Virus record (IMG/VR): IMGVR_UViG_3300019889_000015
Location: 1-62,516 of that record
Reading direction: 5' to 3' (one strand)
Length of the DNA stretch: 62,516 bases
Source of the DNA: a virus
Both the position numbers and the translations under genes were made by a program. Position 1 is the stretch's first letter; each line of letters starts with the position of its first letter. Of the stretch, positions 35,111 to 52,915 are shown in pieces. The notes beneath the pieces are model-generated. The model was not told the DNA's origin. It did not search any database and saw nothing but the letters and a program-made list of their open reading frames with translations.

Positions 35111-35166
35111 AAAAAGCACCCCTCCCGCCGGAGACAGGAGTATCCAGGCGCGGAGGGGTGCTTTTT
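35111..35166 (-). terminator. Terminator after the LPDTG-protein gene
   Basis: 15-bp stem AAAAAGCACCCCTCC (35111-35125) with GGAGGGGTGCTTTTT (35152-35166), with an inner CGCC/GGCG stem. T-run in the leftward sense directly behind the gene that ends at 35194. Isolates this gene from the next operon. Confidence 0.88.
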
Positions 35167-35193
35167 CTTACATCGTCAGCGAGAGATGACCTC

Positions 35194-49026: not shown

Positions 49027-49113
49027 CCCCCAGCCTCGCCCCGCAGGTGGGCAGCCCGTTCGAGCCGGGCCGAGGCACGCAACCAGCACAAGATCAAAGG
49101 AGGGGGTGCCGTC

Positions 49114-49308
49114 ATGGCATATGAACGCGAGCCACGACCGATCGATCAGAGGCTCACCACTCCGTTCGCACAGTGTGGCGACTGTCTGTGGAGCCACGCC
49201 AGGGAGGAGCCGAACATCCGGGTGGCGGTCAAGAGACACGTCGCCGACACCGGCCACGTGGTCGACGTCATCCGGGAGACGATCATGGTGTGGGGGCTGG
49301 GCGAGTGA
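49114..49308 (+). CDS. Small Cys/His protein
   Basis: 64 aa, ATG with AAAGGAGGGGG upstream, the strongest ribosome site in this operon. CGDCLWSHA then KRHVADTGHVVDV matches a short zinc-finger family common in actinophages (CxxCxW...H..TGH). Coupled to the nuclease gene. Confidence 0.62.
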   Translation: MAYEREPRPIDQRLTTPFAQCGDCLWSHAREEPNIRVAVKRHVADTGHVVDVIRETIMVWGLGE

Positions 49309-49919
49309 AAGCGATCGAGACGGTCTACGCGGGGTGTCGATTCCGCAGCCGCCTGGAGGCCCGGTGGGCGGTGTTCTTCGACACGCTCGGCATGGAATGG
49401 CAGTACGAGCCGCAGGGGTTCGAGCTGGAGAACGGCACGCGGTACCTGCCGGACTTCTGGCTACCGGAGTGCAACACCTGGTTCGAGGTCAAGGGAGTCC
49501 CGCCGACCGATCGGGAGCAGGCGACCTTGATCCAGTTCGCTCGCGAGCTACCAGGACCAGGCATGCCCGAAGCCTGGTCAACCGACGGTCTACGGGCTTC
49601 CGAGTACCTCAAGGTCGCCGTGGGCGACATCCCGGAGCATCCGGCGTCGCTGACGTATGTGCCCAGGTCGCTCTGGACCCCCGGCTACATCTGGCGCGTC
49701 CTCGTAGAGGGTTCCTGGGTCAACATCGCGCCACGGTGCTGGCAGTGCTGCCCCAGCGATCACCGGTACGTCGGGTGGGGCTGGTGCTGGCGGTGCGCCA
49801 TCGGCGACGAGGAAGACGGTATGCAGGGGGCTCATGCCGCCCCCCGGCCCAGCATCCTGGCCGCTCACGGCGCCGCCAGATCCGCTCGGTTCGAGCACGG
49901 AGAGCGGGGCGCGCGATGA
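49305..49919 (+). CDS. PD-(D/E)XK endonuclease-like protein
   Basis: 204 aa from GTG. RFRSRLEARWAVFFDTLG with Glu18, YLPDFWLP with Asp50 and WFEVKG with Glu61/Lys63 give a complete E...D...ExK site. A Cys cluster (CWQCCPS and CWRCAIG) follows. A common actinophage nuclease of unclear substrate, directly before the prim-pol gene. Confidence 0.75.
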   Translation: MKAIETVYAGCRFRSRLEARWAVFFDTLGMEWQYEPQGFELENGTRYLPDFWLPECNTWFEVKGVPPTDREQATLIQFARELPGPGMPEAWSTDGLRASEYLKVAVGDIPEHPASLTYVPRSLWTPGYIWRVLVEGSWVNIAPRCWQCCPSDHRYVGWGWCWRCAIGDEEDGMQGAHAAPRPSILAAHGAARSARFEHGERGAR

Positions 49920-50515
49920 GCAAGGGATTCCACTCCCTCGATGCCGTGTGCGTGGCGGCTTATGCACGCGGCGACATGACCGAAGGCGAACGCCTGGAGG
50001 CTGTGCTGGATCAGCTCGACGACATCCTCGCCGACGACGAAGGCGTCACTGCGGCCCGAGCGAACATCGCTGGCGTCTCGGCGTGGTACGCCAGTCGCGG
50101 GATGCCGGTGTTCCCGCTGTCGGCCAACAGCAAGGTGCCGATGAAGGGCACCCACGGGTTGCTTGACGCCACCGTCGACCCGGCGATTGCCCGGCGCATG
50201 ATCCCGGACGGCTACCGGGCCAACCTCGCGGTGGCGACCGGCCACACGCACGACGTGATCGACGTCGACGGGCCAGAGGGGCATCACAGCGTCATCCGGC
50301 AACTCAAGGCCGACCCCGACTTCCCGCGCGTCTTCGGCATCGGACTGACGCCACGGGGGATGCACTTCTGGGTCGCGCCCACCGGACGCGGCAACACCAC
50401 GGCCATGCTGCCGAGCGTGGACTACCGGGGCATGGGCGGCTACGTGGTCGTTCCCCCATCCGTCGTCGACGACTCGCCGTACCGGTGGCTGATGCCGCCC
50501 GGGACGACGGCCTGA
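49916..50515 (+). CDS. Prim-pol domain protein (primase/polymerase)
   Basis: 199 aa. AEP-superfamily prim-pol: GMPVFPLSANSKVPM, then the catalytic pair in DVIDVDGPEG (Asp116, Asp118), PRGMHFWV and the late VDYRGMGGYVVVPPS. Makes primers or extends DNA during replication. Coupled by TGATG to the helicase gene, the split form of the prim-pol/helicase fusion seen in other phages. Confidence 0.83.
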   Translation: MSKGFHSLDAVCVAAYARGDMTEGERLEAVLDQLDDILADDEGVTAARANIAGVSAWYASRGMPVFPLSANSKVPMKGTHGLLDATVDPAIARRMIPDGYRANLAVATGHTHDVIDVDGPEGHHSVIRQLKADPDFPRVFGIGLTPRGMHFWVAPTGRGNTTAMLPSVDYRGMGGYVVVPPSVVDDSPYRWLMPPGTTA

Positions 50516-52008
50516 TGGGGTTCTATGACCAGTGGGATGCCCGAAGTGGCGGCGAGGCCCGGTCCACGTCGCCACTGACCGACTCGTCGACCACTCCGTA
50601 TGGTGCGCGGGGGCTCGCCGACGAGCTGGCCCGGCTCCACCTGGCCCGGTCCGGGACACGTAACGACACCCTCAACGAGGTCGCGTTCGCGATCTTCCAG
50701 CTCGTGTACGCCGGGCATGTCGATCTTCGCGACGCCGAACAGGCGATCGGTACGGCCGGGCACGGGATCGGACTATCCGCGCAAGAGATCGCCAAGACAC
50801 TGGGCTCGGCTCGCGAGGGTGCCGCGCGCAAGCCCCGGACCAACGTCCCGGACCCATCCGAGACGGGCACACGGCCCCTGCTGCCGGACGTTCGCTGGGA
50901 TCCCGGCATGCCGGTGGTGCCGAAGCTCGTGGTGGGCGTCAGCGGACCACCAGAGCCGCTGGCGACTCCGGTCGTCGACGCCGATCTGGCCGAGGGACCC
51001 AGCCCCTATGACGCGCTCTACATCCCGCGCTCGGGGCTGGCCTCGCTGCCGCGTGGGGAACCCCTGATCGAGGACTGGATCGACCGGCACACCTACTTCG
51101 TGCTCGTCGGCCGGGACCAGACCTACAAGTCGTTCCTCGCGATCGACTGGCTGCTCTGCCTCGCGACCGGGCGCCCGTGGATGGGCAAAGACACGGTGCT
51201 GTCGCGGGTGCTGTACGTGATCGGCGAGGGCGCCTTCGGCCTCGACGACCGGGTGACGGCGTGGGAGCGGCGACGCAACGGCGGCAAGCAGGTCGACGAC
51301 GAGATGTTCACGACTCGGCGCGCTCCGGTCAATCTTTTCCGCCAAACGAGCGAGTTCTTCGACCTTTTGGAGCGAATCGAGCGCGAAAAGTACGAAGTCG
51401 TGGTCTTCGACACCCTCCAGCGCATGGCCCGTGGCGCGAACCAGGACAAGGCATCGGACGCCGCGATCGTCGTCGGGGCCGTGGATCTGGTCCGGGAGGC
51501 GTCCGGCGGCACGGTCGGGTTCGTCGCCCACTCGGGCAAGTCCGACGAGGATCTCCGGGGCTCGTCGGCGTACGAGGACGACGCCGACATCGTGGTCAGG
51601 ACCAAGCGCGACGAGGACGAAGAGGGCGTGCGCGTCACCCAGACAAAGCGCAAGGACGGCCCTGACGGAACCACGATGATCCTCTACCCCGAAAGGGTGG
51701 CCGGAACCGGCAGTTTGATCTTGTCACCGCACCAGGCGAAGCTGCCCGACAACCCCGACGCGCTCCGGAAGTGGGCCATCCCATTCATGAAAGAACTGGC
51801 TCGGATATCAGTGGGAGAGACCGGTCTCAATAGAAACGACCTGCTCACACGGACCGGTTGTTCGGGCAGAGGGACCGCTGACAACACCCTAGATGACCTG
51901 ATTTCTACTGGGTTTGTCCTGAAATTAGGGACCGTTTCGCGTCCGCGCTATGTGATCACCAATCTCGGACGGACCGTTTTGGAAGACGTGGGGGTGGAAA
52001 CGCGATGA
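50515..52008 (+). CDS. RecA-like replicative helicase/ATPase (RepA/AAA_25 type)
   Basis: 497 aa. Walker A variant GRDQTYKS (199-206), EG(AF)-type motif VIGEGAFGLDDR, Walker B VVVFDTLQ with Asp299, and a sensor-like VAHSGKSDEDLRGS. The C-terminal 70 residues look like a winged helix (GLNRNDLLTRTGCSGRGT). Unwinds DNA with the prim-pol partner. The 3' end of the gene carries origin-like repeats. Confidence 0.82.
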   Translation: MGFYDQWDARSGGEARSTSPLTDSSTTPYGARGLADELARLHLARSGTRNDTLNEVAFAIFQLVYAGHVDLRDAEQAIGTAGHGIGLSAQEIAKTLGSAREGAARKPRTNVPDPSETGTRPLLPDVRWDPGMPVVPKLVVGVSGPPEPLATPVVDADLAEGPSPYDALYIPRSGLASLPRGEPLIEDWIDRHTYFVLVGRDQTYKSFLAIDWLLCLATGRPWMGKDTVLSRVLYVIGEGAFGLDDRVTAWERRRNGGKQVDDEMFTTRRAPVNLFRQTSEFFDLLERIEREKYEVVVFDTLQRMARGANQDKASDAAIVVGAVDLVREASGGTVGFVAHSGKSDEDLRGSSAYEDDADIVVRTKRDEDEEGVRVTQTKRKDGPDGTTMILYPERVAGTGSLILSPHQAKLPDNPDALRKWAIPFMKELARISVGETGLNRNDLLTRTGCSGRGTADNTLDDLISTGFVLKLGTVSRPRYVITNLGRTVLEDVGVETR

Positions 52009-52113
52009 CCAGCAATTACATAGTGCATTCCTCGAAAAGGGACCGGTTGGGACCGGTGAGGGACCGGTTGGGACCGGTCGGACCCCCTTTAGGGAACCGA
52101 GGGGGGTCCGACC
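51817..52113. other. Candidate replication origin (iterons plus hairpin)
   Basis: Four GGGACCGGT copies begin at 52039, 52049, 52060 and 52070, spaced 10-11 bp. Looser GGACCG words lie at 51851, 51871, 51928 and 51971, with the palindrome GAGACCGGTCTC at 51817. A 12-bp hairpin follows: GGTCGGACCCCC (52076-52087) with GGGGGTCCGACC (52102-52113). The stretch is AT-richer than its surroundings. Lies directly behind the helicase gene; no gene in 52009-52159. Confidence 0.65.
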
Positions 52114-52159
52114 TACCGGGCTCCGTTCGGCTTGCATCAAACCGATTCGGAGGATTAGC

Positions 52160-52915
52160 GTGACGACCGATGAGCCCACGAAGCTCCTGTGCCAGTCGAC
52201 GAACTGCCGCCCCACCGACCGTGGTGGCCCGAGGGAAGTCGAACCGTCCCGGCCGCTCTGCCGGAACTGCGCCGACTGGTTCGGCCGGAACCTGACGCAG
52301 ATCGCCGAGATGCTGCCGGACCTCCGTGGCCGGTTGGGCGTCGAGGGCAAGGCGGGCGAGAAGCTCACCGGGACGAAGCTGCCGGGCATCGTGATCAACG
52401 AGGAAGTGTCCGACCTCCTGGCCGAGCTGACCGAGTGGGCGCGCTACCTGGCCAAGCAGGTTCGCCGGTACCACAAGCTCACCCAGCCGCCGCAGTCGTT
52501 CGACGTCGACACCCTCCTGGTGTGGCTGGCCAAATACCACGCCTGGCGCCTGGCCCACCACGACGACCGCGAGCTGGCCGTGTACGTGGTCGACTGCGCG
52601 GCCTGGTACCGGTCGGAGATCCAGCGGATGGCCTACCCGTCAGGCTCCCGGCGCTTCGACATCCCCGGCGGTGTGTGCCGCGTGATGGTGGTCCCCGACG
52701 ACGCGATCGACGGACATCCCGGCTACCCGTGCGTTGGTCAGCTCTACGCCATCGTCCGTGACGGGGCGTCGTTGCTGCCTTCGGAGATCGTCTGCGACAG
52801 GAACGCCGACCACCGGATACCCTCTGGTCAGTGGGTTCAGTACGCGCGACAACTGGAAAAGGCGGGTCATGCCAGCGGTAGCGATTCTGGAGCGGGAGTT
52901 CCTGACGGCGGCTGA
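52160..52915 (+). CDS. Hypothetical replication-region protein
   Basis: 251 aa from GTG with CGGAGGA upstream. An N-terminal CQSTNC...CRNC set may bind zinc. The middle is helical (EWARYLAKQVRRYHKLTQPP). The C-terminal part has GGVCRVMVVPDD and YPCVGQLYAIV. I recall a similar protein beside actinophage replisome genes. Function unknown. Confidence 0.62.
   Translation: MTTDEPTKLLCQSTNCRPTDRGGPREVEPSRPLCRNCADWFGRNLTQIAEMLPDLRGRLGVEGKAGEKLTGTKLPGIVINEEVSDLLAELTEWARYLAKQVRRYHKLTQPPQSFDVDTLLVWLAKYHAWRLAHHDDRELAVYVVDCAAWYRSEIQRMAYPSGSRRFDIPGGVCRVMVVPDDAIDGHPGYPCVGQLYAIVRDGASLLPSEIVCDRNADHRIPSGQWVQYARQLEKAGHASGSDSGAGVPDGG

Follow-up and report, generated by a model that had tools for sequence, protein, structure and literature searches.

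A probable iteron origin at the 3' end of a phage helicase gene, likely read by the helicase's own winged helix

Some 300 bp at the 3' end of a phage helicase gene very probably form a replication origin that is read by the helicase's own winged helix, which would make this protein a self-loading initiator-helicase. The stretch lies in a virus, IMG/VR record IMGVR_UViG_3300019889_000015; positions 1 to 62,516 of this record (the window) were analysed. The initial annotation had proposed an initiator-bound iteron origin at this place, and the sequence comparisons support this as the best reading. Three lines of evidence carry it: the layout recurs in relatives, the repeat word tracks the recognition helix, and a second repeat block inside the gene switches together with the word. 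On this evidence the array is most likely where the helicase binds. For the same reasons the likely initiator is the helicase winged helix and not the 251-residue protein encoded downstream; both had been named as candidates. The features of the region are as follows.

49106..50515, plus strand: prim-pol gene upstream of the helicase (Pfam Prim-Pol, E 1.4e-26; domain at about 50081-50497; true start uncertain)
50485..52008, plus strand: RepA-type (RecA-fold, AAA_25) helicase, predicted to be hexameric and to end in a winged helix (Pfam AAA_25, E 1.1e-30; start codon uncertain)
51754..52005, plus strand: part coding for the winged helix (about residues 424-507 of the helicase, from AlphaFold models)
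51817..51828, no strand assigned: palindrome GAGACCGGTCTC in the helicase gene
51851..51976, plus strand: four GGACCG words in the end of the helicase gene (starts 51851, 51872, 51929, 51971)
52005..52163, plus strand: 52-codon ORF overlapping the helicase stop codon, open through the whole iteron array
52039..52078, plus strand: main array of four GGGACCGGT iterons (starts 52039, 52049, 52060, 52070; spacing 10/11/10 bp)
52076..52113, no strand assigned: perfect 12-bp hairpin (arms 52076-52087 and 52102-52113, carrying GGACC/GGTCC; 14-nt loop)
52160..52915, plus strand: 251-aa protein (phrog_1568, E 2.4e-6; weak similarity to a phage DNA-binding family)

The helicase has 507 residues, and its AlphaFold model has a mean pLDDT of 80. 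The best structural match of the model is RSF1010 RepA (1g8y; Z 24.2, 2.3 A over 218 residues). The winged helix has MarR-like structural matches that reach Z 12.7 (rmsd 3.1 A over 79 residues); in the model its recognition helix comprises residues 462-475, and R462 is the first of these. A Pfam scan found no primase domain in the helicase ORF. The helicase is proposed to be an origin-binding initiator-helicase.

All four GGGACCGGT copies lie 3' of the helicase stop codon, and the word is absent from the rest of the 62,516 bases. Their number and spacing are as initially annotated. The same holds for the perfect hairpin behind them, whose arms are fully complementary, and for the palindrome and at least four further GGACCG words in the coding end. 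The claim of a locally AT-richer stretch is also correct: GC is 0.552 at 51800-52009 and 0.679 in the rest of the helicase gene (50485-51800). The layout consists of the palindrome and spread in-gene words, then the downstream array, with a GC of 0.55 in between; the palindrome corresponds to the iteron block that relatives have within the gene. The four in-gene words fall within the last 200 bases of the gene, in a single reading frame, and the word at 51929 codes for the family-conserved Gly-Thr of the wing; some of them may therefore be coding coincidences, and each is uncertain. Four identical 9-mers occur within 60 bp in the window, whereas 60 Markov-shuffled versions of its full sequence never give more than two. 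Counting 6-mers gives a weaker contrast (7 per 500 bp, equal to the shuffle maximum of 7). The significance of the window array hence lies in its longer, evenly spaced units and not in the 6-mer count.

The window has just one denser 6-mer cluster, at 35.3 kb. It was considered as a second origin and rejected, as it is the coding repeat of an LPXTG protein. This CCGGAC cluster is made by the Asp-Pro (DPDP-type) repeats of a 318-residue LPXTG-type cell-wall-anchored protein carried by the phage (35194-36150, minus strand), which ends in LPDTG, a hydrophobic stretch and an RRR tail. A long hairpin, AAAAAAGCACCCCTCC...GGAGGGGTGCTTTTTC, is found at 35112-35169; it is flanked on both sides by A and T runs and is probably a two-way terminator. 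GC skew, which had been suggested as a check on an origin near 52 kb, is uninformative along the window, with no clear switch. An Rfam search gave no match.

The initial annotation placed the repeats beside a helicase/prim-pol pair. A prim-pol gene does lie just upstream in the window and is a candidate priming partner of the helicase. A general link did not emerge from the relatives: prim-pol was found in only 26 of their 116 fetched flanks, many of which are short, so these flanks do not establish prim-pol as an obligatory partner. In 21 of these 26 it is fused to the helicase. The 251-aa protein has distant relatives in Arthrobacter phages where this helicase is not beside them, and it is not needed for the origin model. 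None of the eight neighbouring proteins scanned has a RepC-like Pfam match.

The helicase protein has many distant relatives, though no phage record has DNA similar to the region, and the exact DNA is unique in public sets. A search of viral contigs for tandem GGGACCGGT returned 33 stretches, none of which encodes a relative of the helicase. The layout, by comparison of relatives, recurs. A relative was scored as positive if its 6-mer cluster in the interval from 150 bp before to 350 bp after the helicase stop codon was larger than in each of 100 shuffles and in every other 500-bp segment of that locus. By this measure, 41 of the 86 non-redundant relatives pass and 45 fail, and the window does no better than a tie with its shuffle maximum (7 and 7). 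Repeat words are specific to lineages and include GTCTCA, CCGTCC, GGGACA, CCGGAC, GTGAAC, CGGGCA and ATCACA; the hosts include Actinomycetota and an Oceanospirillaceae MAG. The nearest relative (L045; helicase 44% identical) has ACTCC at the same place, where 540 bp hold 8 copies while the rate elsewhere is 0.16 per 300 bp, and a GC hairpin follows the array. In another relative (L050, 4884-5074) the helicase reading frame continues through the iterons and the hairpin, so they are translated there.

Related phages with the helicase kept and the repeats missing had been named as a case that would refute the origin. Such phages exist in part, alongside the many relatives that carry arrays. The Omegavirus phages examined have the helicase and its winged helix, and no array was found near the gene; none was seen in distant phage relatives in general, and the right-hand 50 kb of Minerva (L242, Minerva 60000-109871) also lack one. 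Omegavirus helicases are 42-43% identical to a Mycobacterium prophage helicase. In these phages (L242, Minerva) an HNH endonuclease gene lies directly behind the helicase gene.

Mycobacterium prophages provide the link between the repeat word and the protein. The sample, drawn from Mycobacterium genomes, comprises about 20 loci of prophage type whose helicases share 51-65% identity with those of L139/L172; the layout of these loci has two clear iteron blocks. Most close relatives with a complete ORF and flank have an array directly 3' of the stop codon. Spacing of the units peaks at 10-11 bp, and their orientation is set relative to the hairpin: 128 forward and 14 reverse to its left, 1 forward and 38 reverse to its right. 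The word varies even among close relatives. Lysine or arginine is the first recognition-helix residue in 13 of 13 helicases with GTCTCA versus 6 of 28 with other repeats (41 helicases; Fisher p 1.5e-6, uncorrected for relatedness), and GTCCAC loci have other residues at this position. A tree built with the winged-helix columns excluded requires at least 8 changes of repeat type. No phylogenetically independent pair is discordant in residue direction; only 4-5 pairs are on supported branches, and for that reason a sign test is not significant. The winged helices of these covarying relatives are only about 15-23% identical to that of the window.

The second block is located some 150-206 bases upstream of the stop codon, in the part coding for the first helix of the winged helix. 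It contains GTCTCA in 7 of 8 GTCTCA loci and in none of 10 GTCCAC loci; GTCCAC is found in 8 of the latter 10 and in none of the former 8. The background for these words in the gene body is 0.02-0.03 per 70 bp. The encoded protein varies with the word (LLSTFVHHF, LLSHFQSHF, LLSQFRLTF, RLIMSQHFSL); as read from these sequences, the protein alters so that the DNA word is kept.

Any DNA-binding role of the winged helix would give the same covariation, and its fold is MarR-like. The repeats could accordingly be an autoregulatory operator, on which the winged helix controls transcription of its own operon with no origin function. We consider this unlikely: the sites are at the 3' end of a gene rather than at a promoter, no sigma-70-like promoter was found in 51700-52300, the repeat blocks reach into coding sequence, and the DNA-binding domain is fused to a replicative helicase. 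The array might otherwise serve another protein, such as the 251-residue neighbour, as a partition, incompatibility or packaging site. Iterons spaced by one turn are also known at centromere-like sites, and the neighbour has its weak similarity to a DNA-binding family. However, relatives of the neighbour occur without this helicase, and the word tracks the recognition helix of the helicase; such a site is very unlikely. Least probable of all is that the repeats are coding, the 21-bp period reflecting DRLGPV-type repeats in the 52-codon ORF and the in-gene words reflecting codon bias. That ORF is open through the array and the in-gene words share one frame, but arrays of relatives have different words and spacings, and they are found 3' of the stop codon or, in L050, within an extended helicase ORF. 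In the prophages, moreover, the protein sequence changes while the DNA word stays.

One further alternative concerns the hairpin and not the array, and is compatible with the origin reading: the hairpin may be a mere transcription terminator beside the iterons. This is quite possible, although we lean slightly against it. The hairpin is GC-rich and lies directly 3' of the gene. Its core, CCCCCTTTAGGG (52083-52094), is found in 40 viral stretches, of which 3 lie behind a helicase of this kind with the orientation kept and 1 more with it reversed. The core alone is therefore not origin-specific, and CCCYTTTAGGG was rejected as a stand-alone signature. Against a terminator, no T-run is present after the window hairpin, and a scan for intrinsic terminators, which allows loops of 3-8 only, calls none in 51700-52300. 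The arms of hairpins in relatives carry the iteron of their own locus, and inverted iterons follow. A GC stem with a loop of TTTA or similar is present, by a strict rule, in 22 of 110 loci where about 0.5 are expected. The hairpin may be a priming site, a melting aid or a terminator. Separate hairpins containing ACCCCCYTTTAGGGGGT are present in many viral contigs without this helicase (L202-L238), several of them as near-identical copies (for example L205, L211, L216, L233); they are perhaps terminators.

The origin reading suggests the following sequence of events. The C-terminal winged helix would bind GGACCG/GGGACCGGT iterons along one DNA face, some of them in the 3' end of the gene that encodes it and the others immediately past that gene. 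Binding would gather helicase subunits; melting would follow in AT-richer DNA that separates or adjoins the two groups of iterons, and the RecA-fold motor would assemble there as a ring and unwind outward. The hairpin may mark or aid first priming, perhaps by the neighbouring prim-pol, or it may end transcription. Sequence and structure comparison directly gives the array, its recurrent position, the winged-helix fold and, in relatives, the covariation of the word with the recognition-helix residue and the in-gene block. For this phage, we infer binding, ring loading at the adjacent AT-richer DNA, melting and origin activity from the homology of the layout and the covariation.

Parts of this arrangement are known from other replicons. 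The alpha protein of phage P4 has a winged helix at its C terminus. It differs in carrying a Toprim (bacterial-type) primase, whereas the window encodes a RepA-type motor and a separate AEP prim-pol; the likeness is that alpha is a helicase binding repeats at its ori (discussed in PMC4234260). In SaPI/PICI elements the ori is directly 3' of the gene for a self-loading helicase, and its iterons are read by the C-terminal domain (PMC6092414, PMC7581432). The window and many of its relatives share with them a short-iteron array immediately 3' of the initiator-helicase gene and may also share iteron sets adjoining an AT-rich stretch (PMC6092414, PMC7581432); the C-terminal domain that reads the origin there would correspond to a predicted winged helix here. 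SaPI/PICI Reps are D5/Primase_Cterm or DUF927 helicases, whereas the present helicase is of the AAA_25, RecA-fold RepA type. Other differences are the placement of some iterons within the part coding for the winged helix and the iteron-carrying palindromic hairpin at the end of the array. RSF1010 oriV has a RepA-type helicase, to which the fold predicted here corresponds, as well as iterons, hairpins and an AEP-type primase nearby (PMC4434180, PMC4234260). Its initiator, RepC, is a separate protein, and each strand has its own ssi hairpin, two in all (PMC4434180, PMC4234260); the window has a proposed initiator domain within the helicase and one hairpin with a putative role. A counterpart of ssi hairpins recognised by an AEP primase may exist in the window, which has both a hairpin and a prim-pol; among relatives prim-pol was found in only 26 of 116 fetched flanks, and the hairpin core is not specific to these loci. 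Sulfolobus plasmid pRN1 and phage BIP-1 also have a C-terminal winged helix on the replication protein and a stem-loop, the presumed origin, directly downstream of its gene; pRN1 differs in having a single prim-pol/SF3 protein and in its large stem-loop, which has no iterons (PMC4234260).

On balance, these loci probably represent a widespread and so far undescribed class of origin in phages and prophages. In this class a RepA-type helicase fused to a winged helix would load itself at iterons behind and inside the winged-helix coding sequence; the word would be set by a few recognition-helix residues, and an iteron-bearing hairpin would end the array. No description of this layout was found in the open-access literature searched. 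To our knowledge, few actinobacterial phages and prophages that carry prim-pol/RepA-type modules have a known replication start. If the proposal is true, the origin could be read from sequence and the initiator would be the helicase itself. The natural covariation of word and residue would be a ready-made specificity code, and the prophages would show cleanly how a gene can carry the binding sites of its own protein. Kazlauskas et al. suggested origin recognition for the winged helices of related primase-helicase proteins, some of which have RepA-type ATPases (PMC5862659); the DNA side found here makes that suggestion testable.
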